Made by a program: the position numbers and the translations under genes | Notes under the pieces: generated by a model | Seen by the model: the letters and a program-made list of their open reading frames with translations, nothing else | Databases searched by the model: none | What the model was told of the DNA's origin: nothing | Shown here: positions 2,899 through 42,643 of the stretch, in pieces | How positions within the stretch are numbered: position 1 is the first letter of the stretch | How the letters are laid out: every line of letters begins with the position of its first letter | Source: a virus | Reading direction: 5' to 3' (one strand) | DNA length: 42,832 nucleotides | IMG/VR virus record: IMGVR_UViG_3300027917_000076 | Location: 1-42,832 of that record

Positions 2899-3159
2899 AT
2901 GGACGATACCTTTTTACAGGCTCGGATCGACAAATGCAAGGAGCTCATCGTTGCGATTGAGACGCTCATCGAGACACTTCTAACCGCCGACGACGGCGAC
3001 CAAAAATCCTACACGTTGAATACCGGTCAATCCGTTTTGACCGTCACAAAACAGTCGATCCCCATGCTCGAGGATATGTTGACCAAAATGGAAAACCGTT
3101 GCGCGACGCTTTGCGCAAGGCGCAACGGCGCGACGACGAGGGTGACGCCCGGATGGTAG
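2899..3159 (+). CDS. gpW-like small head-tail connector protein
   Basis: This 86-residue protein sits between terminase and portal, the place of lambda gpW. It begins with a helix (DDTFLQARIDKCKELIVAIETLIETLL), followed by a short beta hairpin (YTLNTGQSVLTVTKQS) and another helix (IPMLEDMLTKMENRCATL). This helix-hairpin-helix order resembles gpW and the small proteins encoded before GpB portals. A short AGGG lies upstream of ATG 2899. The stop overlaps the portal start (ATGGTAG), implying coupled translation. The intergenic stretch 2840-2898 holds only the ribosome-binding region. The assignment rests on size, order and predicted secondary structure. Confidence 0.55.
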   Translation: MDDTFLQARIDKCKELIVAIETLIETLLTADDGDQKSYTLNTGQSVLTVTKQSIPMLEDMLTKMENRCATLCARRNGATTRVTPGW

Positions 3160-4721
3160 ATTTTAACGCAATAGAGCCCCACCCCGTCGACCTCGATTTC
3201 GAGCCCGACACGCCCGCCGCCTCGACTGGTTACGTGCAACCCTATACAAACTATCGTGCTTGGGATGGCGAGAAATTCCCGACCGGTTTCGGGGCGACAA
3301 ACGTTTTCCAAACGGACTACTGGCAATTACGCGAACGGTCGGCGCAACTATTCACCGAGAATTTATACGCTCGAGGTTTGATTCGGCGACTCGTGACCAA
3401 CATTATTACGACCGGTTTGTCGCTCGAGGCGATGCCCGACGAGCGTATTTTGGGGATCCCGGCTGATTCGCTTAATGACTGGCAAGATCTTGTCGAGTCG
3501 AGGCACAATATCTGGTCGATAAATCCGCAAGCTTGTGATTTTTATGGTCGGTCGACGTATGCCGAGATCCAAAAAGAAATTTATCGCGAGGCGTTAATCG
3601 AGGGCGACGTTTTAATTGTCCTGCATATCGACCCCGTGACGGGGTACCCAAAAATACAGGTAATTAAGGGCTCACACGTCGCGACGCCCGTGGGCAATAC
3701 GAACGAAAACGTCGAGTATGGCGTTGAAATTGACGAGAGCGGCCGTCACGTGGCTTTTCACGTCACGCAGGACGACGGGTCAAGTGTACGCGTGCCCGCC
3801 TTTGGGGCGCTATCAGGGCGCCGTGTAGCGTGGCTTTTTTACGGTACGGACCGACGGATCGGCGATGTCCGTGGTCAACCTGCCCTTTCGCTTTTGTTGC
3901 AATCCCTAAAAGAGCTCGACCGGTATCGAGACGCGGCGATCCGAAAAGCCGTGGTAAACAGCGTTATCGCGATGTTTATCAAAAAAGACGAGGAAAAAAT
4001 GGGTACTTTGCCCGTCACGGGCGGCGCCGTCCGGCGTGGCGTGGCGGTCGACTCGAGCACCCAAGCGAGCTCACCGCGTCGATTTCGCATCGAGGAATAC
4101 GTCCCTGGCGCCGTAATGGAGGAATTGCAAGTAGGCGAGACGCCCGTGCCGCATTCGACGGCAGGGACCGACGTCAATTTCGCGGCGTTCGAGTCGGCCA
4201 TGCTCGCCGCGTTCGCTTGGGCAAATGAGATCCCGCCTGAAATATTGATTCTCGCTTTTACAAACAATTACAGCGCGAGCCAGGCGGCAATAAACGAGTT
4301 TAAAATTTATCAAAATACCGAGCGGGGCAGGGTCGGCGATGGCGTTTGCCAGCCGATACACGTCGAGCACTTTACCAGCGAAGTAATGCAAGGCAAAATT
4401 TCGGCCCCGGGCTTTTTGGAGTCGCGGACCGACCCGCGCAAATTCGACATTTTTGGCGCTTGGGTCGCGGGCGACTGGAGCGGGGCGATCAAACCGGCGA
4501 CGGATACACTCAAACAAGCAAACGGATATTCGAAAATGGTGCGCGAGGCGTGGACGACAAACGAGCGCACGTCGCGTGAGATTACCGGTACGAAATTTCG
4601 CCGAAACGTCCAAAAACTAAAACGCGAAAACGAGCTTAAGGCCGAGGCGTTTAAACCGCTCGTCGACCTGCAAAGTCAATTGTCGGGGCTCGAGCAAACG
4701 ATACAAGGGGCGACGGAATGA
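3153..4721 (+). CDS. Portal protein, lambda GpB family
   Basis: The 522-residue portal forms the dodecameric DNA channel at the capsid vertex. The sequence shows the family pattern: an N-terminal region around 'LYARGLIRRLVTNIITTGLSLEA', a central 'REALIEGDVLIVLHIDP' strand pair, and the C-terminal signature 'DTDVNFAAFESAMLAAFAWANEIPPEILILAFTNN' (cited in parts), equivalent to 'NFAAFV...LGVPYE.L..D.S..NYSSARA' in GpB portals. A charged helical tail (residues about 480-522) follows. I chose ATG 3153, which overlaps the upstream stop. An in-frame TTG at 3099 would add 18 residues but overlap far more. The downstream gene overlaps by ATGA. Confidence 0.9.
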   Translation: MVDFNAIEPHPVDLDFEPDTPAASTGYVQPYTNYRAWDGEKFPTGFGATNVFQTDYWQLRERSAQLFTENLYARGLIRRLVTNIITTGLSLEAMPDERILGIPADSLNDWQDLVESRHNIWSINPQACDFYGRSTYAEIQKEIYREALIEGDVLIVLHIDPVTGYPKIQVIKGSHVATPVGNTNENVEYGVEIDESGRHVAFHVTQDDGSSVRVPAFGALSGRRVAWLFYGTDRRIGDVRGQPALSLLLQSLKELDRYRDAAIRKAVVNSVIAMFIKKDEEKMGTLPVTGGAVRRGVAVDSSTQASSPRRFRIEEYVPGAVMEELQVGETPVPHSTAGTDVNFAAFESAMLAAFAWANEIPPEILILAFTNNYSASQAAINEFKIYQNTERGRVGDGVCQPIHVEHFTSEVMQGKISAPGFLESRTDPRKFDIFGAWVAGDWSGAIKPATDTLKQANGYSKMVREAWTTNERTSREITGTKFRRNVQKLKRENELKAEAFKPLVDLQSQLSGLEQTIQGATE

Positions 4722-4984
4722 CTACAACGCCGACGGCCGTACCGATACCGGCCGATACGTGGACAAAGGTTTTAACGGCCGTTCAGGACGGCATGGTGTG
4801 GGTTGGCGATACCGACCCCGTATATTTTCACCAAACGGTCGCCACGGGCGGCGCGGCTCCCTCGGGGCTCGACACGGCGGCGGTTTTACCGTTGCCCGGT
4901 TTGCCCGTTTCGTCGTCGTTTGTGTGTGACGTTTACGTTTATGCCGTGGGGCAGGCGGGAAAGGTTACGGTGTCCGCGCCATGA
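4718..4984 (+). CDS. Small beta-rich virion-type protein
   Basis: The protein has 88 residues and starts at ATGA overlapping the portal stop. The composition is rich in Thr, Val, Ala and Pro, with no charged helices. The C-terminal part alternates hydrophobic residues (VCDVYVYAVGQAGKVTVS), as in small jelly-roll or immunoglobulin-like virion proteins. It overlaps the next gene by ATGA, so it is translationally coupled in the head operon. The sequence gives no specific family. A capsid-surface or fibre-base role is an inference from position. Confidence 0.6.
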   Translation: MTTTPTAVPIPADTWTKVLTAVQDGMVWVGDTDPVYFHQTVATGGAAPSGLDTAAVLPLPGLPVSSSFVCDVYVYAVGQAGKVTVSAP

Positions 4985-5469
4985 GCGCCGAATTTCAAAG
5001 TAACTATGGCATGGTAATCGGCGATCAATTGCCCGGGTCGCGCAATTCGGCGGCGTATTCGCCGAGCTCGAGCGCCGAGCGGACCGAGCGAACAAACCCC
5101 GATTTCGGTCACTGGCAACCCGATATCGTGTTCGATGAAACAAATATGACCGACGGCGTTTATGACATTTATGTTTCGATGGACACTTTCCGAAAGTTGT
5201 ACTTACAGCTTGTTTTGGATGGCGGTTCGGGGACGGTCACGGTCGTTTTGGAGGCGACGGCGCAATTCACCGACGGCGACCCGAGCGCCCTTGATTATGA
5301 TGACGTCGGGCTCGAGGTTTTCGGCTCGGCGACGTTTACCGCGTCGGATTTTTTGGGCGACAATTTGGAAAAATTGGCGGGCGCGACTTGGGTGCATATC
5401 GAAATAACCGCGTCGACGGGTGGGGCAAATGACGCTGACGCCCGAGTCGATACATATAGGCTTTACTAG
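4981..5469 (+). CDS. Beta-rich virion-type protein of the head operon
   Basis: The protein has 162 residues. After a polar N-terminus there is a beta-sandwich-like pattern with aspartate-rich turns: 'GVYDIYVSMDTFRKLYLQLV', then 'GSGTVTVVLEAT', then 'TWVHIEITASTGG', ending 'DARVDTYRLY'. Similar folds occur in carbohydrate-binding or decoration modules of virions. It is coupled on both sides: ATGA overlap upstream, and its TAG stop shares one base with the GTG start downstream. I do not recognise a named family. A structural role is inferred from the operon. Confidence 0.6.
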   Translation: MSAEFQSNYGMVIGDQLPGSRNSAAYSPSSSAERTERTNPDFGHWQPDIVFDETNMTDGVYDIYVSMDTFRKLYLQLVLDGGSGTVTVVLEATAQFTDGDPSALDYDDVGLEVFGSATFTASDFLGDNLEKLAGATWVHIEITASTGGANDADARVDTYRLY

Positions 5470-6254
5470 TGGCCCGGTTTTCGGTCATATCGCCGGTCGA
5501 GTCAAACGGCGGGGTGCCTGTCAACGTACAAGATCAAACAACCCGTATTTTGGATCTCTATTTTCTCAAAGTCGACCCGGCGTCTTTTACGACACTATCG
5601 GCCGACGCGGCACCGAATGACCGAACCGTGACATTGACCTCGACGACCGGATTTGTGGACGGGTCTATGATAGGTTTATCGACGGCCACGGAACCGAAAT
5701 TTTATTTCGGGATCCAATTGGGTGCCCCGGTCGGGAACGTAATCACACTTGATACGCCGCTCGACGACTATTATTTTACGGGAACAAACGCCTTTTCGAC
5801 GTCATTTGGTCTCAATGTAAACGGCGACGTCACGCCCCAAATATTTCAGATCGGGCCGGTAGGGGCGAAGACGGGTTTGGAGGTCGATCTGACCCGTGTT
5901 ATGGGATACATGGAGCACGCGTCGGCCATGGATGACAGCAAATTCGGGGGGCGTGCCGCGTTGACAAAAGGGATCGTTTTACGTCGAAAGTATAACGGCA
6001 CCTATCAAAGTATATGGAACGCCAAAACGAACGGCGAAATGTCTTTGATTTGCGCGAGCGATTTTTTCTACACGTCAAAGGCCCCGGCCGGTTTCAACGG
6101 CGCCCGGTTTCGGAATACTTTCGGCGGTCAAGAGAAACATGGGGTTGTCGTCCGTTTGGCACCTACCGAAACACTAGAACTAGTTATTCAGGACGATCTA
6201 ACGTCGTTTAACCGTTTTAATATGATGGCTCAAGGCCATTTTACACAGAATTAA
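5469..6254 (+). CDS. Conserved-looking phage structural protein
   Basis: The protein has 261 residues and starts at GTG 5469, overlapping the upstream TAG by one base. The N-terminus describes a beta domain ('ARFSVISPVESNGGVPVNVQ'). In the centre lies a 'TTGFVDGSMIGL' turn typical of coat or fibre-like virion proteins. The C-terminal third ends in 'LELVIQDDLTSFNRF' followed by 'NMMAQGHF'. There is no signal peptide or transmembrane segment. The 'IQDDLT..(F/T)xFxMMAQGH' ending recalls proteins found near adhesion modules in other phages, but I cannot name the family. With its two small upstream partners it probably belongs to one assembly. Confidence 0.6.
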   Translation: MARFSVISPVESNGGVPVNVQDQTTRILDLYFLKVDPASFTTLSADAAPNDRTVTLTSTTGFVDGSMIGLSTATEPKFYFGIQLGAPVGNVITLDTPLDDYYFTGTNAFSTSFGLNVNGDVTPQIFQIGPVGAKTGLEVDLTRVMGYMEHASAMDDSKFGGRAALTKGIVLRRKYNGTYQSIWNAKTNGEMSLICASDFFYTSKAPAGFNGARFRNTFGGQEKHGVVVRLAPTETLELVIQDDLTSFNRFNMMAQGHFTQN

Positions 6255-6264
6255 AGGTGTGACC

Positions 6265-6564
6265 ATGGCGGACAGGGAAATAATTGACGCGGCGTTCGAG
6301 GCGTTGACCGAGACCGAGCTCGAGACGGCCCGCGAGGCGTCCGAGGGCGCCTCGATCTCGAATCCGATACCGTTGACGCCCGAGCTCGTTCTCGCCGTTT
6401 TGGCGGCGTTGCGGGCCGGTCAAAAGGTGCCCGAAATCAAACGCTCGGTTTATGTCGAGGGTAGAAGGGGCGAAAAGTTAAAAATGACCCGCGCGCAAGT
6501 GCAAGAAATCGCCGACCGGCGAAGATATTACTATTTGCGCGCGAAAGGGGCCCTAGTCGAGTAA
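6265..6564 (+). CDS. Small helical protein of unknown function
   Basis: The protein has 99 residues, starting at ATG 6265 with AAAGGTG as ribosome-binding site just upstream; an in-frame GTG at 6259 lies inside that site. It is predicted mostly helical, with an acidic N-terminal half (ADREIIDAAFEALTETELETAREAS) and a basic C-terminal half (KLKMTRAQVQEIADRRRYYYLRAKG). Placed between a structural protein and the large beta-helix protein, it could be a small chaperone or adaptor for the following proteins. That is inference; no family is recognised. Confidence 0.6.
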   Translation: MADREIIDAAFEALTETELETAREASEGASISNPIPLTPELVLAVLAALRAGQKVPEIKRSVYVEGRRGEKLKMTRAQVQEIADRRRYYYLRAKGALVE

Positions 6565-9177
6565 ATGACGATTTATTGCGCCACAACGTCGAGCGGATTA
6601 GGTGACGGGTCGTCGTGGGATAACGCGATCGGCGGTATTGCGGCGGCGATTGCAGCGGCCACGACCGAAGAAATTTGGTGTAAAGAGGGCACCTATACCC
6701 TTTCGGCCGCTATAACTGCAAAAGACGGTTGCGATATGTTCGGCTCGTTTTCGGGCGCCCTTACCGGGACGGATGGCACCAAAGCGGGGCGTGATTTTGT
6801 AAACGATGTATCTGTGATCGACGGGGTCGCGACCTATCAACTCGTCGAGCTCGCGGATTCCGATTGGAGCGGATTTCGATTTTACAATGGTAATACGGCG
6901 GTTTCGTCGGTCCGAGGGTCCGGCGTCACGTGCGAGATCTCGGATTGCACTTTTGATAGTTGTGCAAACGCTAGTAATTACGGCGGCGCGTCAATGATAC
7001 GCGATACGTCGACGGTCGCGTTTACTCGGTGTGTTTTTACGAATTGCTCGGCGGCTCGAGGCGGGGCCGTGGCGGTTCGCTATACGTCGCCGGTCACTTT
7101 TACGGATTGTATATTCGGAACCAGCGGAAACGGTAATAGCTCGACTATCGAGGCGGGCGCCGTGTACGTGAGCGACGCGGGCGAGGCGAATTTTGTCGAT
7201 TGCGAGATCGCCTATAACTCGTCTCCGAGTGGCGGGGCCGTCAAGGTCGTCGAGACCGGGTCGACGGCCGAGCTCACGAGATGTAAATTGCATGATAATG
7301 AGGCCACGGTCGCCGACGGCGGCGCTATTGAGGCAAATGTCGGCGGCGTGACGGCGACGAATTGTCTTTTTTACGATAATGAGTCGGTTGACGAGGGCGG
7401 GGCCGTCAAAATCGGCGGCACGGGCGGCACGGGCGAGTTTTACAATTGTATTTTCGAGGGTAATACCGCCGCAAATTATGCGGTTCGGCAGGTTGCGGGC
7501 ACCCTCACGCTCGTCAATTGTATTGTGTACGGCAATACCGGGGGCTCGGTTAGTAGTACGGGCGGCACGGTGTCGGTCACGTATTCCGACGTCGAGGGCG
7601 GTTTTACCGGCACGGGCAATATTAACAGCGACCCCCTTTTCGTCGGTACCGGCGACGACCCTTACGCTTTGCAGGCGACGAGCCCGTGCATTGACGCGGG
7701 CGACGGCGACGCGGCGCCGTCGACCGACTACCTCGGAGCGGCTCGTGTGGACGTCCCGACGGTCACAAATACCGGGACGGGGACGCCCGCCTATACCGAT
7801 ATCGGGGCGTACGAGTACACACCGGCGGCTCCGCCCTTGGACGTGGTATTGGTGCAAAATATGGGACGTACAGTCGACGCGCCCCCGGCGGAAGTCGCCC
7901 GGGGATGTAAATTCGCGGAAAATTTTCGGACCGCCGGTCAAGTTGTCCGGAATGGCGGGCAAGTATATGGGTCGGTACCGATAAAAGACGGCGCCGATTT
8001 CGACGGGGTCGCCGGTAGAGCAATATTATTCGACTCATATCAGGCATTCGACAAGTCGGCGACCTCGGTTTTTGCGGAGTTCACGCCGACTTTTTCGCCC
8101 GAGGATAATCTCACCTGTTATATGCTCGATTCGGAGTTTGCCGATCGGTCGATTTGGATTCTCGCGCTACACACGGGGCCGGATAATCTTCTCCAAATCG
8201 GAATCGGCGGATCTGGCGTTTTTTCGGTCTCGGCGAGCGTTTTTAGTCAATATTGGCGCAAGAACCAAAAAAACACTCTCGCTTTTTCGGGCGTCCCCGG
8301 CGCGAATAGGTGTTTCTTGAACGGCGTTTTGATTGCGACGGCATCGACCGCTTGGACCCAAAACACGTCAGATTATATCGTTGTCGGGGCGAGATATGAC
8401 CGGACGTTTCAATTTCGGGGCGCCGTTCATAAGGTCAAGATTTTCGATGTCGCGTTGACCGACCAAGAACTCGTCGATATGCACAACGACACCACGTACA
8501 ACTATCCCAACGAATGCAGCCTACACCTACCGATGGGTATGAGTGAGCACGACCCCGACAATCTCCGAACGCTCGACATTTCGGGCAACGACCGGCACGC
8601 CCAGTTCGGCGACGGCGTGACGAGCTCGACGTTTCCGACGAAAACGCGGCGGGTCGGGTATGATTACGACGGGGATGATTTTTTAAGATTTTTTGAGGGC
8701 GGGGCGGATCTTATCACGGGTGACGCTTATACGGTGTCTATTCAAGCTGTACCCGAATACGATCTCGGAACGGGAGGTCAGTATTATCTTTACGATTCTA
8801 CGCCAAACAGATTCTTGGTTACTATACAAACAACCGGTGCGCTCTCGGTATATGCCGGAGGAACGTCGGTTTTAGGGGCGTCTCTTTCGGCAATGGCGGC
8901 ATTTTGGAAAAAGGGGTCGGTATTAAATTTCGTCGTAGTTGGGCGCGCGTCGACGCCGTATCATGCCCTATACATGGACGGGCAGCTTATAGCCGAAAGT
9001 GCCACCGTGTGGACGATGGGGAGTTCTACTTGGTGGAATATAGGATCTAGATATTCGTCGCCGTATGCCGCGTGGCCCGGTCAAGTGAAATCTTTTCAAG
9101 TTTGGCCCAAAGCACTCACGCCGATCCAGATCCACGACCTACACCTCAAAACCCTCGGTACTGGAGGCCAAGTATGA
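6565..9177 (+). CDS. Large beta-helix plus LamG-like protein, probable virion adhesin
   Basis: The protein has 870 residues. Residues about 1-110 form an N-terminal domain. Residues about 110-370 form a right-handed beta-helix with recurring 'FTxCxFxxN' and 'GGAV' repeats (examples: 'FTRCVFTNCSAARGGAV', 'FYNCIFEGNTAANYAV'), as in polymorphic outer-membrane-type repeats. This ends in 'TDIGAYEY' near residue 412, typical of bacterial surface beta-helix proteins. Two concanavalin A/LamG-like sandwiches follow, about 480-645 ('GAVHKVKIFDVALTDQELVDMH') and 650-865 ('VKSFQVWPKALTPIQIHDLH'), each ending in the family's 'K.F..ALT..E(I/L)' strand. No signal peptide is present, as expected for a virion protein. 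It starts one base after the upstream stop and overlaps the next gene by ATGA. It resembles a tail spike or capsid fibre, and its place inside the head operon is unusual. Confidence 0.78.
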   Translation: MTIYCATTSSGLGDGSSWDNAIGGIAAAIAAATTEEIWCKEGTYTLSAAITAKDGCDMFGSFSGALTGTDGTKAGRDFVNDVSVIDGVATYQLVELADSDWSGFRFYNGNTAVSSVRGSGVTCEISDCTFDSCANASNYGGASMIRDTSTVAFTRCVFTNCSAARGGAVAVRYTSPVTFTDCIFGTSGNGNSSTIEAGAVYVSDAGEANFVDCEIAYNSSPSGGAVKVVETGSTAELTRCKLHDNEATVADGGAIEANVGGVTATNCLFYDNESVDEGGAVKIGGTGGTGEFYNCIFEGNTAANYAVRQVAGTLTLVNCIVYGNTGGSVSSTGGTVSVTYSDVEGGFTGTGNINSDPLFVGTGDDPYALQATSPCIDAGDGDAAPSTDYLGAARVDVPTVTNTGTGTPAYTDIGAYEYTPAAPPLDVVLVQNMGRTVDAPPAEVARGCKFAENFRTAGQVVRNGGQVYGSVPIKDGADFDGVAGRAILFDSYQAFDKSATSVFAEFTPTFSPEDNLTCYMLDSEFADRSIWILALHTGPDNLLQIGIGGSGVFSVSASVFSQYWRKNQKNTLAFSGVPGANRCFLNGVLIATASTAWTQNTSDYIVVGARYDRTFQFRGAVHKVKIFDVALTDQELVDMHNDTTYNYPNECSLHLPMGMSEHDPDNLRTLDISGNDRHAQFGDGVTSSTFPTKTRRVGYDYDGDDFLRFFEGGADLITGDAYTVSIQAVPEYDLGTGGQYYLYDSTPNRFLVTIQTTGALSVYAGGTSVLGASLSAMAAFWKKGSVLNFVVVGRASTPYHALYMDGQLIAESATVWTMGSSTWWNIGSRYSSPYAAWPGQVKSFQVWPKALTPIQIHDLHLKTLGTGGQV

Positions 9178-11171
9178 GCGGAGTACATCCATACATTCAG
9201 GCACTCATCGATGCCGGCGATGTTGTCGTTTATTTCGACCCTCGCTCGGGCTCGTATCGGGATTGGTCTGGCAACGGAAACGACGTCATACCCACGGCCC
9301 CGACAAGGCTGGGACTGTTCGGGGCGAATTTGAATAATACGGGGCGCATGGGCATTGCGGGGGATGCTAGTTTGGATATTGGATCGGGCGCGTATTCGCT
9401 CGTTTACTATTTCCCAGACGGTTATGCATACAATACGAGTGGAACCAATTACGCTTGGGGCCAAGCAGTAGGCAATGGCGGAATTCACTTCTTACTTGGG
9501 AGTGTCAGTGCTGTTTTACAACAGCGGGGGGTTAATAGTGGGATAAATATCACGCCTATAGGGCGGCGGGCCGTGGCGTGCTCGTTGGAGCCTGGTCAAT
9601 TACCATCTTTTTTTTACGACGGTGTTTTCGAAGGGCTCGGTGCTTCTATATTGACGGCTACTGATCCCGCGATTTTAAGTGTAACTATAGGAACACCTAG
9701 TTCTTACATCCGCCAAATCCCCACCCCGTTCGGCGCCGTGCTGGCAACATCCCGAGCCCTCACGGCTACCGAGCACGCCCTGGTCTATGACGCCCTCGAG
9801 CATACCACCTGGCCGCGTCTCACGTATTCCCACGCCCCGCCCAAGGGTTTAGATGTATGCGACGATCCGGGCATTATAGCGGCGTATAACATGCGGCCCG
9901 TGGGTGGCAAGGTATACGACCTGAGCGGCAACGGGAACGACGGGACTGTCAGACGGGCGGTGTACGAAAAGACACCTTTGGGTGACGCGTTGCGGTTTGA
10001 CGGCACGAATGATGTTTCTCAAGTCTCGATTCCATACGATCCCTCGATGAATGTTACCGCTGGGTTGAGTGCGTCTTGTTGGGTTCGTACCACTGGACTA
10101 TCTGGAACTTTGATCACTCGATGGCACACCACAGGGGACAACCTTTGTTGGGGCATGTATATCGCCGGAGGTGTTCTCCGTTTTGCGGCGAGCGGCGACG
10201 GGACCGTTAGCGATTTGGATACCGCAAATGATGGTACGTTGATCAATGACGGGCTTTTAAGGCATTTAGCAATTACGTATGATGTTCCCACAAAAACCGT
10301 TAGTTTCTTTATTGACGGCGAGTTCAGTTCGAGCGCAGCTCTTACACATTCGGGGCCGCTTTACCCTTCTAGCCAGGCTGAACTGTGGCTTGCCGATGAG
10401 CAAACCGGAAACCTCGGTGATAATTATGATGGGCCGATGACCGCCCCAATAATCCGCAATTACGCAATGACACCCGACGAAATCAAAGCAGAATACAACC
10501 GAGGCGCCGAGGCGCTTTTGTTCAAGACGGACTGGGGCGCTCGTGAGACCGCCGCCCCCGTGACGGCGGGGCTCGTCGGCGGGTCGCCCTGGGAAGCCAT
10601 CAGCGGCTCGTTTGACGTGGTTACGGTCGATTACAAGGGCGAACCGCATAAGGCGCTGAAATGCATCTCGGCGGGCGTTTGCGCGATACCGACGAGCGCG
10701 TTTCGGGTCGGGCCGACCCAAGCGGCGCGGGGCGGTTTCAAGTGGATTATGTCAAAGGCCGCCCTAGGCAATACCGCCCCAAATATCGCGTTTATAGGTA
10801 ATCAAAAATCGGCCTTTACTGATTCGACGTTTAACGGTTACAGCTATCAATTCGCCCCAAATGAGAGTGTAAGAGTCGGTCTTTATACGAACGGCGTTAT
10901 CTCTTACGCCGGTATCACTGTAGCGGATGCAGTATTGGTCGACACGTTTTATGAGTGCGCCGTTGATGTCACGGCGGGTGGGGATTTTTACTCATATCTA
11001 AACGGGGAGCTGGTCGATTTAACGGGTGGTTCGGGAACGAATCCTTTCAATAATACCGCGGTTACGGAGTCCAAATTTGCCTTAGCCTCATTTGGCGCGG
11101 GCGATATGATTCTACTTGGCAACCGAAACGGCGAAAACGGATTTCAAAAACTGTTAGGGGTTCCAAAATGA
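9174..11171 (+). CDS. LamG-domain fibre-like protein
   Basis: The protein has 665 residues, with ATG 9174 overlapping the upstream stop. It contains at least two concanavalin A/LamG-like sandwiches. The first spans about residues 1-205 ('YRDWSGNGNDV', then 'GAVLATSRALTATEHALVYDAL'). The second spans about 225-440 ('VYDLSGNGNDGTV', 'ALRFDGTND', 'LRHLAITYD', 'SFFIDGE', then 'RNYAMTPDEIKAEYN'). A further beta-rich region runs from about 445 to 665 ('FYSYLNGELVDLTGG'). The 'SGNGND' turn is shared with the preceding protein ('ISGNDRHA'), so the two probably arose from related modules and act together. A carbohydrate-binding adhesin role is inferred from the LamG fold. It overlaps the protease gene by ATGA. 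Confidence 0.75.
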   Translation: MSGVHPYIQALIDAGDVVVYFDPRSGSYRDWSGNGNDVIPTAPTRLGLFGANLNNTGRMGIAGDASLDIGSGAYSLVYYFPDGYAYNTSGTNYAWGQAVGNGGIHFLLGSVSAVLQQRGVNSGINITPIGRRAVACSLEPGQLPSFFYDGVFEGLGASILTATDPAILSVTIGTPSSYIRQIPTPFGAVLATSRALTATEHALVYDALEHTTWPRLTYSHAPPKGLDVCDDPGIIAAYNMRPVGGKVYDLSGNGNDGTVRRAVYEKTPLGDALRFDGTNDVSQVSIPYDPSMNVTAGLSASCWVRTTGLSGTLITRWHTTGDNLCWGMYIAGGVLRFAASGDGTVSDLDTANDGTLINDGLLRHLAITYDVPTKTVSFFIDGEFSSSAALTHSGPLYPSSQAELWLADEQTGNLGDNYDGPMTAPIIRNYAMTPDEIKAEYNRGAEALLFKTDWGARETAAPVTAGLVGGSPWEAISGSFDVVTVDYKGEPHKALKCISAGVCAIPTSAFRVGPTQAARGGFKWIMSKAALGNTAPNIAFIGNQKSAFTDSTFNGYSYQFAPNESVRVGLYTNGVISYAGITVADAVLVDTFYECAVDVTAGGDFYSYLNGELVDLTGGSGTNPFNNTAVTESKFALASFGAGDMILLGNRNGENGFQKLLGVPK

Positions 11172-12361
11172 CCGATCTGTTTGAATATCAATGGGCGATG
11201 ACCGAAACCGCCCTGCAAAGCCTATTTGACGCGGCCGTGATGCCCCGGCAGGCCGACCGGATGCCGGACGCCTTAAAGGCGTACGTGACCGACGGCGTCG
11301 GTATTCTGCGCATACAAGGCCCGATCGTGCCAAATAAAACATATGGCGAGTTTTACGGGCTCACGAGCGTCGAGCGACTTTCAGAAGAGCTCGAGGCGTT
11401 GCAGGCGAGCGACGAGGTCGGCCGAATTTTGCTTTTCGTCGACTCGCCCGGGGGCGCCGTGCCGGGCGTTTCCGAATTTGCGGATCAAGTCAAACGCTCT
11501 AAAAAGCCCGTTGACGCCTTTGTATTCGGCTCGGCGACGAGCGCGGCGTATTGGGCGATTAGTGGCGCTAAACGGGTATACGCGGCGGACACGGCAGTGC
11601 TCGGCGGTCTCGGCGTGATATGGGCGGCTCGCAAACCGGCCGACGATAGTCGCGAGGCGATTTTCGTGTCGAGCCAAACGCCTCAAAAAACCGACCTCGT
11701 CTCGGATAGTGGCCGAGCGTCAATGCAAAAGGCGGTCGACTCGGTCGCTCAAGTATTCCTCGAGGCAGTGGCAAGGAATCGAGGTGTGACTTTAGAACAG
11801 GTCAACGCCGATTTTGGGCAGGGCGGTATTTTAGCGGCGGCCGACGCCGTTTCGGCAGGGATGGCCGACGAGATCATAACTTTCGAGGCTTTGTGTGGGA
11901 AGCTTCGCAAAAAAGCGGCACGCCCGACCTCGGGCGGGTCATATTTCGGCGCGGCGGATACCGCGTCAAAGGAGCGCAACACAATGGATATTAAACTTTT
12001 GCAGGCCGAGCACCCCGAGGTGTTTGAGGCGGCGGTTTCCATCGGTGTCAAGCGCGAGCGTGAGCGCGTGGACGCTCATTTGACGCTCGCCGATGCATCG
12101 GGCGACATGGAAAGCGCCATCAGGGCAATCAAAGAGGGCGGCGAGATGAACGCCTCGGTTATGGCACATCATCAAGCCGTGGCCATTAAAGCGGCGCAAC
12201 AAAACGCCCGCGTCGCGGACAATCCCCAAACCGGCGACGTACCGACGGGCGGTCAATCGACCGATCAAGGCGACCCGATGGCCGACCGCGTGGCCGACTA
12301 TCTGGCGGCTCGTTTTGGCGCTGAAATGGACGACGAAAGTGAGGTTGTTTTTCATGACTAA
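11168..12361 (+). CDS. Head maturation protease (S49/GpC type) with C-terminal scaffold domain
   Basis: The protein has 397 residues. Residues about 40-250 form an S49 (SppA/GpC) serine peptidase: 'LLFVDSPGGAVPG', then 'GSATSAAYWA' with Ser125 as nucleophile, then 'TAVLGGLGVI', and Lys174 in 'TPQKTDL'. The 49-residue Ser-Lys spacing matches the Ser-Lys dyad of S49 enzymes. Residues 273-397 form a charged helical region (MDIKLLQAEHPEVFEAAV onward) that corresponds to the scaffold, as in lambda C/Nu3. An internal start with a strong ribosome-binding site lies at 11984 (separate entry). The gene overlaps its upstream neighbour by ATGA and the decoration gene by 8 bases. The protease would cleave scaffold and portal-associated proteins during prohead maturation. 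Confidence 0.9.
   Translation: MTDLFEYQWAMTETALQSLFDAAVMPRQADRMPDALKAYVTDGVGILRIQGPIVPNKTYGEFYGLTSVERLSEELEALQASDEVGRILLFVDSPGGAVPGVSEFADQVKRSKKPVDAFVFGSATSAAYWAISGAKRVYAADTAVLGGLGVIWAARKPADDSREAIFVSSQTPQKTDLVSDSGRASMQKAVDSVAQVFLEAVARNRGVTLEQVNADFGQGGILAAADAVSAGMADEIITFEALCGKLRKKAARPTSGGSYFGAADTASKERNTMDIKLLQAEHPEVFEAAVSIGVKRERERVDAHLTLADASGDMESAIRAIKEGGEMNASVMAHHQAVAIKAAQQNARVADNPQTGDVPTGGQSTDQGDPMADRVADYLAARFGAEMDDESEVVFHD
11984..12361 (+). CDS. Nested in-frame capsid scaffold (Nu3-like), internal start
   Basis: This is an internal in-frame product of 125 residues, sharing the stop of the protease gene. ATG 11984 (codon 273) is preceded by AAAGGAGCG (about 11968-11976). That is the same ribosome-binding string used before the capsid gene (12768) and the tail fibre (25270). 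A strong site inside a coding region is not expected by chance. Lambda makes its Nu3 scaffold from a nested start in gene C in just this way. The product is charged and helical ('SIGVKRERERVDAHLTL', 'DMESAIRAIKEGGEM') and ends 'FGAEMDDESEVVFHD', as expected for a scaffold that nucleates capsid assembly and is then degraded by the co-encoded protease. Confidence 0.75.
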   Translation: MDIKLLQAEHPEVFEAAVSIGVKRERERVDAHLTLADASGDMESAIRAIKEGGEMNASVMAHHQAVAIKAAQQNARVADNPQTGDVPTGGQSTDQGDPMADRVADYLAARFGAEMDDESEVVFHD

Positions 12362-12755
12362 CCTAGTAATCACAAACAACGACCTCGGAAGCGTCGTGCT
12401 TAAGCAGGGCGAGTTCAAAGACGAGCTATTGACTTTTGCAGGCGCGGCGACCGTCGTCGAGGGCACCATTTTGGCGCGTGACTCCGTTTCGCTCAAACTT
12501 GTCCCGTTTGTCAAAGGCGGGTCGACAAACGAAAATGGGATCCCCAAATGCATTATTACGTATGACGTGACCGCGACAGGCGCGGGCGACGAGCCCGTGC
12601 GGATCATGAATGGCGGGGTTGTACGTTTCGAGCGTTTGGTTATCGACGCCGATGGCGACAATTCGAACGTTGACGCGGCAGTAATGGACCAAATGCGAGA
12701 TTATGCGCAAATCACCGTCGACGTGCGACAAGTGTCTTATCAGGACAATCAGTAA
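12354..12755 (+). CDS. Capsid decoration protein (lambda gpD/HDPD type)
   Basis: The protein has 133 residues, immediately upstream of the capsid gene. The sequence 'LVITNNDLGSVVLKQGEFKDELLTFAG' (cited in part), then 'GTILARDS' and 'SLKLVPF', followed by the strand run 'AIITYD'-like 'KCIITYDVTATGAGDEPVRI', matches the head-decoration family (Pfam HDPD) of lambda gpD. These proteins sit as trimers on the mature capsid and stabilise it against internal DNA pressure. I chose ATG 12354, with GAGG upstream, overlapping the protease stop by 8 bases. An in-frame upstream start at 12315 would overlap far more. The gene order protease, decoration, capsid is the lambda C-D-E order. Confidence 0.85.
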   Translation: MTNLVITNNDLGSVVLKQGEFKDELLTFAGAATVVEGTILARDSVSLKLVPFVKGGSTNENGIPKCIITYDVTATGAGDEPVRIMNGGVVRFERLVIDADGDNSNVDAAVMDQMRDYAQITVDVRQVSYQDNQ

Positions 12756-12767
12756 AGGAGCGACAAC

Positions 12768-13853
12768 ATGAGTACTGAAAAAACTAAAAAGATGCTCAAG
12801 GCGTACGCTCAAAGCGCGCCGCCTTCTCTTTTCCTGTCTGGCATGTTCCAAAGCCCGCCGGAAAATTTCCACAATTCCGAATCGGTCGAGATCGACATTA
12901 TGCGAGACGACGAGGATGTCGCGATCGCGATTGACGATCTTTCGACCGGTTATCGGTATAGCGCCGACGAGGTGTTTACCAATAAAGAGTTTACGCCCCC
13001 CATTTTTAAAGAGGCGTTTGCGATCAACGCATACGACCTTTTAAAACGGTCCGTCGGGCGCGACCCGTTCGCCGACGAAGAATTTCAGACCAAAGCATCT
13101 TTTCGCGCAATGCGCGGATTTCGCAAACGTCAGTCGATGATTTTGCGGTCGATGGAGTGGCAAGCTTCACAGGTATTGACAGCGGGTACATGTACTCTCG
13201 TCGATTCGGACGGAAACGCCAAATTTGCCATTGACTACAAACCTAAAGCGACTCATTTCCCGACCGCAACGGTCGGCTGGGATGGCGTGAGCCCGACAAT
13301 CATCGAGGATTTGCGATCGCTTTGCGAGGTGGTTCGAAACGACGGTCTCGGCGACCCTCGTCGGTCCATTTGGAACGATCAAGCGTTCGAGGCGGCGATG
13401 AACGATTCGGATTTTCGCGAGCGGCTCAATACTCGGTACGTCCAATTGGGCGACATCGGATCTTTCCGAGATATGGGCGCGGGCGGTATTTTCCGGGGCG
13501 TTTTGCAAGTCGGGTCGTATGAGCTCGAGATATGGACCTACAAAGGGCGCTTTAAGCACCCGCAAACCGGGACCAAAACGCTGTTTGTTCCAAAGGGCAA
13601 GGTTATCATAATGACCCCGGGCGCACGCCTCGACGCCACTTTCGGCGCCGTGCCGCGTTTCGTGCCCCCGGATGCTCGAGTGCTTCGGTATCTGCCGAGT
13701 CGTATCTCGAACCGTCGCAACCGAACCGACATGTTTGTCAACGCCTGGCTCACGCCGGACGGCGAAACGCTCATGGGCGGGGTCGGTTCACGGCCGCTCA
13801 TGATTCCGACGGCGATCGACACTTTTGGGTGCCTTGACGCAAACTTGAGCTAA
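12768..13853 (+). CDS. Major capsid protein, lambda GpE family
   Basis: The protein has 361 residues, close to lambda gpE (341). Evidence is the position after the decoration gene and the family-type sequence: 'PPENFHNSESVEIDIMRDDEDVA' (cited in part) early on, 'FRAMRGFRKRQSMILRSMEWQAS' in the centre, 'LCEVVRNDGLGDPRRSIWNDQAFEAAM', and the C-terminal 'VPPDARVLRYLPSRISNRRNRTD'. The fold would be HK97-like. Translation starts at ATG 12768 behind a strong AAAGGAGCG site. A rho-independent terminator follows at 13865-13911. Confidence 0.92.
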   Translation: MSTEKTKKMLKAYAQSAPPSLFLSGMFQSPPENFHNSESVEIDIMRDDEDVAIAIDDLSTGYRYSADEVFTNKEFTPPIFKEAFAINAYDLLKRSVGRDPFADEEFQTKASFRAMRGFRKRQSMILRSMEWQASQVLTAGTCTLVDSDGNAKFAIDYKPKATHFPTATVGWDGVSPTIIEDLRSLCEVVRNDGLGDPRRSIWNDQAFEAAMNDSDFRERLNTRYVQLGDIGSFRDMGAGGIFRGVLQVGSYELEIWTYKGRFKHPQTGTKTLFVPKGKVIIMTPGARLDATFGAVPRFVPPDARVLRYLPSRISNRRNRTDMFVNAWLTPDGETLMGGVGSRPLMIPTAIDTFGCLDANLS

Positions 13854-13864
13854 TTTTTGAGATA

Positions 13865-13911
13865 CTCGGCGGGGTGGCCCCCGCAGACCGCCCCGCCGAG
13901 TTCTCTTTTTT
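13865..13911 (+). terminator. Rho-independent terminator after the capsid gene
   Basis: CTCGGCGGGG (13865-13874) pairs perfectly with CCCCGCCGAG (13891-13900), a 10-bp GC-rich stem. A run TTCTCTTTTTT follows at once. It lies 11 bases beyond the capsid stop and just before the ribosome-binding site of the next gene. It probably works as a partial terminator that raises capsid mRNA relative to the tail genes. The structure is seen in the sequence; the strength is not known. Confidence 0.85.
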
Positions 13912-13923
13912 GGAGTGTAAAAA

Positions 13924-14199
13924 ATGTCAAAAAAGTACGTGGTAGCACCGAAAAAAGCGATCACCTCGAAACGTGGTATTTTGGGCGAGGGCGAGGTCGT
14001 ATCCGAGAAAGATTTCGGATGCCCGATTAAAGACCTTGTCGAAAATGGCTTTGTTGTCGAAAAGGGTACTTATGAAACCGTACGCGAGACGCTCAAAGAC
14101 GACTCCCTGCCCGCCGTGTCCGAGGTCGTAAAAGACGACAAAAAAGACGACAAAAAAGACGACAAGTCGCCCGTGGTCGTCAAGGTAAAGAAAAAATAA
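13924..14199 (+). CDS. FI-like head protein with KDDKKDDK tail
   Basis: The protein has 91 residues, directly after the capsid gene, the position of lambda FI. Residues 1-60 look folded ('KYVVAPKKAITSKRGILGEGEVVSEKDF'-type start, cited in part). The C-terminus is a low-complexity acidic/basic tail with a repeated KDDK unit (KDDKKDDKKDDK) followed by 'VVVKVKKK'. The start is ATG 13924 behind TTTGGAGTGTAAAAA, the same 18-base leader that precedes the gene starting at 31626. The role is inferred from order only. It could help recruit the terminase-DNA complex or join head to tail. Confidence 0.6.
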   Translation: MSKKYVVAPKKAITSKRGILGEGEVVSEKDFGCPIKDLVENGFVVEKGTYETVRETLKDDSLPAVSEVVKDDKKDDKKDDKSPVVVKVKKK

Positions 14200-14580
14200 A
14201 TGGGTATCCGGGAACGAGCCGAGGCCGATGCACGGCGGATATTGAACAACAAAACCTCGGGTAAGGGTCTCGACATAACCGTCACGGACCCTACCGGGGC
14301 GAGTCATTCGTTTGTCGGATGGCAAAACGATATCGCCGAGCTCATCGACCCCGATACACAAGATTATGTGTCGGGTCGTCTCGTGAACGTTTCCTTGGCC
14401 ATAACCGATTTAGTTACGGCCGGTTTAGAGATACCCGAGGGCGAGCCCGACCCGAATAAACGCCCGTGGGTCGTCGAGTATACCGACCTTTGGGGCACGC
14501 CTTTAAAGTATGCGGTCGCTCGGTCCGTGCCCGACCGTGGGCTCGGCATTGTGGTTTTGTATTTGGAGGTGTACGCGTGA
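14200..14580 (+). CDS. Head-tail connector protein (FII-like position)
   Basis: The protein has 126 residues, starting at ATG 14200 directly after the upstream TAA. A short N-terminal helix (GIRERAEADARRIL) is followed by beta-rich sequence ('GLDITVTDPTGASHSFVGWQNDIAELIDPDTQ', cited in part; 'GRLVNVSLAITDLVTAGLEIPEG'; 'LGIVVLYLEVYA'). Such small beta-barrel proteins between capsid and tail-terminator genes usually close the head. The order capsid, FI-like, this gene, tail terminator supports a head-completion role. The gene ends overlapping the next start (GTGA). Confidence 0.6.
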   Translation: MGIRERAEADARRILNNKTSGKGLDITVTDPTGASHSFVGWQNDIAELIDPDTQDYVSGRLVNVSLAITDLVTAGLEIPEGEPDPNKRPWVVEYTDLWGTPLKYAVARSVPDRGLGIVVLYLEVYA

Positions 14581-25269: not shown

Positions 25270-26076
25270 ATGGCACGTCAATTAGCGGTTGATTTTCCGA
25301 CAAAAACGAACGGACCGAGCGCCGATTATCCGGCAGGGTCATTCCGAAACGTCACGGCCCCGAGTGACGGCACGGGTACGCCGTGGGACGCGTTGATTAT
25401 GAATGATCTCGCGGGATGGCAACAAGAGCTATTGAGTAAAGCCCAAATCACAGAATCGGGCGTAAATGAGAAAGTTGGGGCGTCTCAATATTTCGAGGCA
25501 ATGCGTAAAACGAGCGGATACCCCGGATTGATTCAAATCGCCGCTTTGTTCAACACGACCCCGTCGTCGGTCGGGCTCCGTTTGCTGAAATTGGATGGCG
25601 CGGGCGTGCTCGTCGCAAACTATAGCGAGCTCACAAACGCCTCATGGGTCGGCGTAATAGATAACGCAACCGCCGACGGATTCTATCGGGCCGATGACGC
25701 GGCGGGGACGTCGCGTAATACCTCGGGCGCGTATCTCATTTTGCCCGATATGGCGGGGCAATTTGTTCGAGGGCGTGACACGACGGGGGCCGTCGACCCC
25801 GATGGCGCCACCCGGGCTGCTTGTGAGGTTCAAAATTGGGCGCTATATCGACACGCTCATTCGCTCTCGTCGGGTGGTAACGCCGTCGAGATCGGGCAGT
25901 ATACCGTTACCTCGACGGGTACCGACTCGCTCGCCCAAAACGACGCGAGTGGAACCGACATATTTGCGCAAGCCCTTTACGAATACGACATGTTGTCGGG
26001 CCTACCGGCAACAAAATACAGTGACGACGAGACGCGACCGACAAACGTCAATTTCGATTTTTACGTATGGTACTAA
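25270..26076 (+). CDS. Tail fibre protein
   Basis: The protein has 268 residues, downstream of a strong TAAAGGAGCG site. Residues about 1-95 form a helical attachment domain ('WDALIMNDLAGWQQELLSK'). A short 'DGFYRADDAAG' and collar-like 'AYLILPDMAGQFVRGRDTTG' are followed by the C-terminal signature 'DDETRPTNVNFDFYVWY', the conserved end of many tail-fibre/collar proteins ('ETRPKNIAFNY'). It would bind the host surface. Its last bases overlap the start of the next gene, the usual place for a fibre-assembly chaperone. Confidence 0.85.
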   Translation: MARQLAVDFPTKTNGPSADYPAGSFRNVTAPSDGTGTPWDALIMNDLAGWQQELLSKAQITESGVNEKVGASQYFEAMRKTSGYPGLIQIAALFNTTPSSVGLRLLKLDGAGVLVANYSELTNASWVGVIDNATADGFYRADDAAGTSRNTSGAYLILPDMAGQFVRGRDTTGAVDPDGATRAACEVQNWALYRHAHSLSSGGNAVEIGQYTVTSTGTDSLAQNDASGTDIFAQALYEYDMLSGLPATKYSDDETRPTNVNFDFYVWY

Positions 26077-41866: not shown

Positions 41867-42643
41867 ATGGATTTTGATTTTGACACGGACAGCGTTGAAA
41901 ACCTCGAGCGTGACTTGCGGTACGTCGCCGAACAAACGTTTCCCAGGGTCGTACAATACACGCTCAATCGGGCGGCGTTCGGTGCGCGTAAACGGATTCA
42001 GGCCGAGCTCAAAAACAAAATGGAGCTCCGCAACAAATGGACGGCGGGGTCAATACAGTACAGGCAGGCGCAAAGGGGCCGTATTGACGGCATGGCGTCC
42101 GAGGTCGGCAGCGCGGCCGAGTATATGCGTCGACAAGAGTCGGGCTTTACCGAGCGCGCGGGGGGCCGCTGGGGTGTGCCTATACCGACGTCGTACGCGG
42201 CGGGTCAAGAGGGGGCGCAACCTCGAACCAAATTGGTTCGCAAGGCAAACCGATTGCAACGCATTAAATTAAAAACCAAATGGCGAGGTGTGACCATAGG
42301 GGCAGGGTATGGCGCCAAGGGCGGCACACGAAAGGCCCGGACCGATAAACAAAGAAATGTTCGCTCGGTTCAAATTGCGGTAACTAGTGGGGCTCGATTC
42401 ATTTTCCTGAAATTCCCACGTCGTCGAGGTATTTTCCGAGTCGTCGGAGGGCGTAAGAAATTTAAAAAGGGGTGGCCCGATGGCGCAAAGTTGAAAATGG
42501 TTTACGACTTGACCTCGAGGTCGGTCACAGTACGGCCCCACCCGTGGCTCGAGCCCGAGGTCGAAAAGACTATCGGCGACCTGCCCAAAATTTACCGCCG
42601 CGTGTTGCTCCGTGAGTTAAAGCGCCTCGGAGTAGGTCTGTAA
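41867..42643 (+). CDS. GpZ-like tail completion protein
   Basis: The protein has 258 residues. The start resembles lambda gpZ-type tail proteins: 'VQYTLNRAAFGARKRIQAEL' then 'KNKMELRNKWTAGSIQY', where a basic helix is followed by a recognition stretch. The later part is rich in Arg, Lys and Gly ('GRRKKFKKGW'-like 'FRVVGGRKKFKKGW') and ends in 'RPHPWLEPEVEKTIGDL'. Such proteins complete the tail or neck so that the head can be joined. It lies upstream of terS across the junction, with the late genes. The ribosome-binding site is absent: the ATG sits 7 bases after a -10 box, so it may be leaderless. Confidence 0.65.
   Translation: MDFDFDTDSVENLERDLRYVAEQTFPRVVQYTLNRAAFGARKRIQAELKNKMELRNKWTAGSIQYRQAQRGRIDGMASEVGSAAEYMRRQESGFTERAGGRWGVPIPTSYAAGQEGAQPRTKLVRKANRLQRIKLKTKWRGVTIGAGYGAKGGTRKARTDKQRNVRSVQIAVTSGARFIFLKFPRRRGIFRVVGGRKKFKKGWPDGAKLKMVYDLTSRSVTVRPHPWLEPEVEKTIGDLPKIYRRVLLRELKRLGVGL

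Follow-up and report, generated by a model that had tools for sequence, protein, structure and literature searches.

The DNA analysed here, referred to as the window, is the whole of a 42.8 kb virus record (IMGVR_UViG_3300027917_000076; 42,832 nt). It encodes a terminase (PF05876/PF20454), a lambda-type portal, an S49 protease, a decoration protein and a major capsid protein E, together with tail genes (contractile-tail sheath, tube, tape measure, hub, wedge, and a 268-aa tail fibre) and replication genes. The assignment to the myoviruses was based on the tail sheath (phrog_165, 9e-83). By portal identity, its nearest cultured relatives are Shewanella phage SppYZU01 (58%), Oceanospirillum phage vB_OsaM_PD0307 (54%), and Acinetobacter phage Scuro (52%). 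The window shares with phages of the VP16/SppYZU01 type the portal family, S49 protease, decoration protein, major capsid protein E, and contractile tail, all in the same order, and its tail sheath and baseplate genes match their counterparts. The window belongs to an uncultured phage akin to VP16C/SppYZU01 that combines a contractile tail with a head of the lambda type. At the far end of the record, distant from the tail genes, positions 41867-42643 match a minor tail protein family (phrog_4688, 6e-43); the product would lie near the terminase if the genome were circularly permuted.

The region of interest is the junction between two head genes on the plus strand. Its left border is the lambda-family portal gene (3099-4721; PF05136 1.3e-53, phrog_21 1.1e-68), whose true start possibly lies downstream of the first part of this ORF, and its right border is the gene for the S49 head-maturation protease (11168-12361; PF01343 6e-16, phrog_53 3.8e-60). 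Between them we found the six ORFs that an initial annotation of the sequence had described (4718-11171), with products of 88, 162, 261, 101, 870, and 665 aa. That annotation had called the genes all overlapping, which applies to most of the borders: there are 4-base ATGA overlaps at 4718, 4981, 9174, and 11168 and a 1-base overlap at 5469, but the borders at 6254/6259 and 6564/6565 do not overlap. The description of the block as beta-rich does not suit the 101-aa protein, which by eye appeared charged and helical. The base composition of the block (55% G+C) equals that of the genome and carries no mark of foreign origin.

The 870-aa protein (6565-9177, plus strand) contains a right-handed beta-helix at about residues 1-366 (PF13229, 1.1e-12, above cut-off). 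The helix is followed by a choice-of-anchor Q segment at residues 367-418 (NF041518, 1.6e-9, above cut-off), which bears out the bacterial surface-protein type of ending that had been ascribed to it, and by LamG domains at about residues 475-650 and 716-856. The beta-helix half (6565-7842; Pfam Beta_helix) is 34% identical to a 460-aa protein from the related locus L066, and the second LamG domain (8710-9132) is the best PF13385 stretch, at residues 716-856. In the 665-aa protein (9174-11171, plus strand), LamG/ConA-like domains were placed at about residues 15-210, 282-438, and 468-660, using PF13385, an AlphaFold2 model, and Foldseek. With two Laminin_G_3 stretches in the 870-aa protein (6e-15) and two in the 665-aa protein (4e-18), PF13385 scoring above its gathering threshold in both, the predicted minimum of four LamG/ConA-like domains was reached; the model, of moderate confidence, suggests a third, jelly-roll-like domain at the C-terminal end of the 665-aa protein. 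Foldseek paired this model, at low TM-scores, with the LG tandems of laminin and neurexin. Its resemblance to clostridial toxin binding domains (∼10% identity, low TM-score) was set aside as a generic ConA-like fold without kinship. No match to the 870-aa protein was found by tblastn against the named phages or by a profile search of its family against the PDB, and its only match to tail-fibre families was weak (phrog_8147, 0.03). Searches for close relatives of the 870- and 162-aa proteins were unsuccessful, and profile searches did better.

The four small products precede the large ones. The first gene of the block (4718-4984, plus strand) encodes the 88-aa protein, which gave no match in Pfam, PHROG, and PDB searches and belongs to a family found at the junctions of L011, L012, L017, L027, L066, L068, L018, and L143. 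The 162-aa protein (4981-5469, plus strand) consists of an N-terminal MVIGDQLPGS motif and a C-terminal domain, and aligns with 47% identity to the C-terminal 138 aa of a 329-aa protein in L012. It is a fibre shortened relative to the L012 and L017 copies, in which the motif and the C-terminal domain are separated by a middle domain and a stalk of coiled-coil-like type. The 261-aa protein (5469-6254, plus strand) has family members at the L018 and L069 junctions. Elsewhere among the structural genes, members precede the portal in Vibrio podophages and L003, neighbour tail genes in L002, and follow the capsid gene in L004. Its AlphaFold2 model had a pLDDT of 40 and no usable fold, and a comparison with its L012 replacement by hhalign gave no common fold (probability below 1). 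A short, weak PDB profile match of this family to a tail tube (E 0.007) was given no weight. The charged, probably helical 101-aa protein (6259-6564, plus strand), a possible assembly helper, has counterparts at the same position in L012 (42% identity) and L017 (37%).

To place the block among its relatives, we assembled a set of related portal loci, 80 of them taken from IMG/VR and 11 from genomes, and added named phages. Junction counts refer to the 78 loci that were left after dropping one duplicate and the Treponema-type prophages (L099-L106), which were excluded for their weak protease match and the other genes in their gap. Measured from the stop codon of the portal to the start of the protease, the junction spanned -17 to 7070 bp across loci. 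The initial annotation took portal and protease to be normally adjacent; this was true of 31 of the 78 loci, i.e. under half, and the other 47 carried one to seven inserted genes, in a sample made up of the best matches to one portal, some of them near copies, rather than drawn at random. Most inserted genes encoded proteins of fibre-like type, with collagen stems, beta-helices, or LamG domains. A collagen-stem fibre with a conserved tip was the commonest single insert, and 22 loci had such a fibre or a related one, sharing a common C-terminal tip family or the stem. Two other single-gene families occurred in 10 and 5 loci, the large block in 3 (the window, L012, and L017), and other inserts in 7, including L094 and L066 (92, 165, 1312, and 460 aa). 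On a quick portal tree, on which the three large-block loci formed one clade (support 98), we counted at least 25 changes in junction content and 16 changes between insert and no insert, at least 12 of which were forced by well-supported branches. Because junction states differ among the 78 loci and change repeatedly on the portal tree, the cassettes at the portal-protease junction are hypervariable, and the site can also be empty. The insertion in the head operon is real; its layout, one that the initial annotation did not know from other phages, belongs to a variable site common among relatives, at the upper end in size.

The same insertion point is used in other phages of the same family (SppYZU01, PD0307, SFCi1, PY6, AeroV_348, and Vibrio 367.14), with inserts of one or two small genes (0.8-1.2 kb) compared with the six genes and 6.4 kb of the window. 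None of the records consulted describes the insert as an adhesin locus, and no account of the portal-protease junction as a variable adhesin locus was found in the literature searched, mainly open-access papers. In the PD0307 record the collagen-stem fibre gene (OL658619.1, 5378-6508) is labelled portal protein and the true portal putative capsid protein; mislabels of this type may have entered family libraries, as the phrog_1289 and phrog_2271 'portal protein' families match the collagen part. Two further arrangements were seen. In L049 (5015-8991), the portal is followed by two collagen-stem fibre genes in tandem (713 and 621 aa), which looks like a duplication of the cassette. In the Treponema-type prophages L102, L104, and L105 (∼11600-14400), the gap from the portal to the weakly matched protease contains small membrane proteins along with a lipoprotein-like gene, and these may serve lysis.

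Within the large-block clade, the 88-aa, 162/329/354-aa, 101-aa, and LamG genes kept a conserved order, and the slot of the 261-aa protein was exchanged (261 aa in the window, 169+169 aa in L012, and 178 aa in L017). The L012 homologues, in the same order as in the window, were 50-52% (870-aa), 33% (665-aa), 47% (162-aa), 42% (101-aa), and 48% (88-aa) identical, and since this order is kept, the block is more than a chance assembly. The 870-aa gene is itself modular: L017 has the LamG half only, and L066 the helix half only. L018 combines at its junction a 262-aa homologue of the 261-aa protein and an 88-aa homologue with beta-helix-like fibres, an assignment made by visual inspection together with a match to a tail protein. 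L143, a myovirus far more distant from the window (portal 25%, major capsid protein 22%, and sheath 23% identity), has at its junction homologues of the 88-aa protein (37%) and of the LamG 665-aa protein (44% and 32%), the latter as two genes split at residue 210/211, a domain border. As these homologues are better conserved than the core head genes, the comparison points to phage-to-phage transfer into this one site or to strong selection at it.

A short motif recurs at the start of proteins of the second-gene type: MVIGDQ in the window, LTIGNV in L012, LVIGNR in L017, LTIGNG and SIIGNG in L068, and QIIGNG in both L143 and L018. The pattern [VIT]IG[ND][GRQV] occurred within the first 28 residues of 6 of the 121 junction ORFs listed and of 1 of 1951 other ORFs, the latter being the L018 junction protein; the pattern was drawn from the data scanned, and three of the seven cases are mutually homologous. 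We regard the motif as a lead to a possible docking peptide.

We considered whether the block is a relocated tail-fibre cassette, with products attached to the baseplate or tail as the main receptor-binding proteins and genes whose place beside the portal is a mere accident of arrangement. In 32 genomes we compared the tail-fibre locus that follows the baseplate genes. At this position the window encodes its 268-aa fibre (25270-26076, plus strand; phrog_26525 and phrog_1858 tail fibre), and the fibres of the window, L012, and L017 measure only 190-268 aa, compared with a median of ∼600 aa in genomes without the large block. Tail fibres this short suggest that recognition is in part the task of the block. 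Tail fibres were also shorter in genomes with the five junctions above 5 kb than in the rest (one-sided Mann-Whitney p = 0.02, unadjusted and with relatedness uncontrolled). Acinetobacter phage Scuro (L009), which has a short fibre after the baseplate and lacks a junction insert, carries an annotated tail fibre and a neighbouring gene between primase and terminase, far from the baseplate (OR348818.1, 16116-18238). Moreover, PHROG tail-fibre or tail-protein families matched junction proteins of L066 (1312 aa, tail fibre phrog_5668, 2e-35), L018, and L017. Against relocation, a trade-off between junction size and tail-fibre size is at best weak across the 32 genomes, with a Spearman coefficient of -0.23 (p = 0.20). 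A large junction insert goes together with a large tail fibre in L066 and L094, and most relatives with a single insert also have a full-size tail fibre or spike. The junction and tail-side proteins have one tip domain only in common, as seen in a 190-aa protein of Vibrio phage 1.009.O (at 22.2 kb) that is 73% identical to the SFCi1 junction protein, and such distinct repertoires argue for two separate structures. We therefore consider relocation doubtful, though it is the alternative to be taken most seriously. In the tail-fibre position after the baseplate genes, genome G002 (L017) and L115 encode three tandem, mutually similar proteins of 191-207 aa.

The products might instead leave the infected cell without joining the virion, for example as a cell-surface coat or a block to superinfection. 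Matches to choice-of-anchor Q and Chlam_PMP are typical of bacterial surface proteins, and signal-peptide-like starts, unusual for virion proteins, were seen in junction proteins of L066 (7326-11264 and 11274-12656), L069 (4946-5824), L094 (5153-8026), and L029 (5774-6829), for which export is possible. One of these is the 460-aa beta-helix protein of L066, and since the window protein aligns to it directly after the added signal peptide, a secreted protein of bacterial type may have been co-opted, whichever way the change ran. However, a hydropathy scan found no signal-like N terminus in any of the six window proteins, the window beta-helix begins where the mature L066 protein would, and the block genes are tightly coupled to portal and protease; export of the window products is thus improbable in our estimation. 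Their place within the head operon, between portal and protease, would also suit internal or structural head proteins such as assembly or ejection factors. However, the insert is missing from close relatives whose head genes are the same, and in known proteins LamG, collagen-stem, and beta-helix domains face outward as binding modules, which leaves an internal role very unlikely.

We favour, as on balance probable, the view that the block encodes an apparently dispensable, swappable set of virion adhesins, most likely glycan-binding fibres or decorations on the head or neck. Genes that serve the virion would be expected to lack signal peptides and to stay at the junction even in the divergent L143, as was found. 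The capsid-bound adhesive fibres proposed by the initial annotation are in line with these observations, with the adhesin-like content, insertion in the head operon, and a repertoire unlike that of the tail-fibre locus. Gene position alone is no proof of virion position, and we grade the parts separately: the products are likely to be virion adhesins, and a head location is plausible. Virion incorporation, a head or neck position, and a glycan ligand are what we infer from gene content and comparison.

Accessory appendages of this kind have precedents. SPP1 gp12 is a collagen-like, trimeric capsid spike that adds little to capsid integrity and has been proposed to bind the cell surface (PMC7602432). 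It resembles the collagen stem of the commonest single junction insert in the relatives of the window; the window block itself, whose products are only putatively bound to the capsid, has no collagen gene and comprises six genes with LamG and beta-helix domains. In phage 7-7-1, vertex fibres on the head contact the flagellum and the fibre gene is unknown (PMC12796354), and phi29 gp8.5 is an accessory head appendage (PMC7602432). By analogy, the fibres proposed for the window may likewise be accessory head appendages that aid attachment; unlike in the window, the portal and protease genes of 7-7-1 (gp113 and gp114) are consecutive, with no block between them (PMC3517404). T4 Hoc and T5 pb10 are surface decorations with Ig-like domains (PMC7602432), comparable, as accessory and surface-binding decorations apart from tail fibres, to what the window block may encode; they differ in being Ig-like and encoded by a single gene, as opposed to LamG and beta-helix products of six genes.

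Under the adhesin reading, the 6.4 kb block would be the hypervariable accessory cassette of VP16/SppYZU01-type myoviruses in an exceptionally large form. Its products would be made in the cytoplasm alongside the head proteins and built into the virion as adhesive appendages, with the LamG and beta-helix domains as their outward, presumably glycan-binding parts. The small N-terminal motif of the 162-aa protein may serve for docking, and the 261-aa slot would be an exchangeable tip. With such appendages the particle could cling more easily to glycans of the host surface or outside the cell, either ahead of the short tail fibre or together with it. Since close relatives do without them, they would not be needed for building the head, as far as comparison tells.

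More broadly, and tentatively, these phages may constitute an environmental myovirus family whose head operon holds a second locus for recognising hosts or surfaces, apart from the tail-fibre locus: modular head or neck fibres with a common short N-terminal docking motif, whose lectin, beta-helix, and collagen modules are swapped at one fixed site. Fast-evolving adhesion loci of phages are usually sought beside the baseplate genes; the adhesin-like site described here, which changes fast, is enclosed by two core head genes. As the junction cassette recurs in cultured SppYZU01, PD0307, SFCi1, PY6, and 367.14, the idea of swappable head or neck fibres is testable on existing isolates. If true, it would give a genetic address for capsid fibres, the genes for which are unknown even in 7-7-1, and a handle to predict attachment in uncultured phages.
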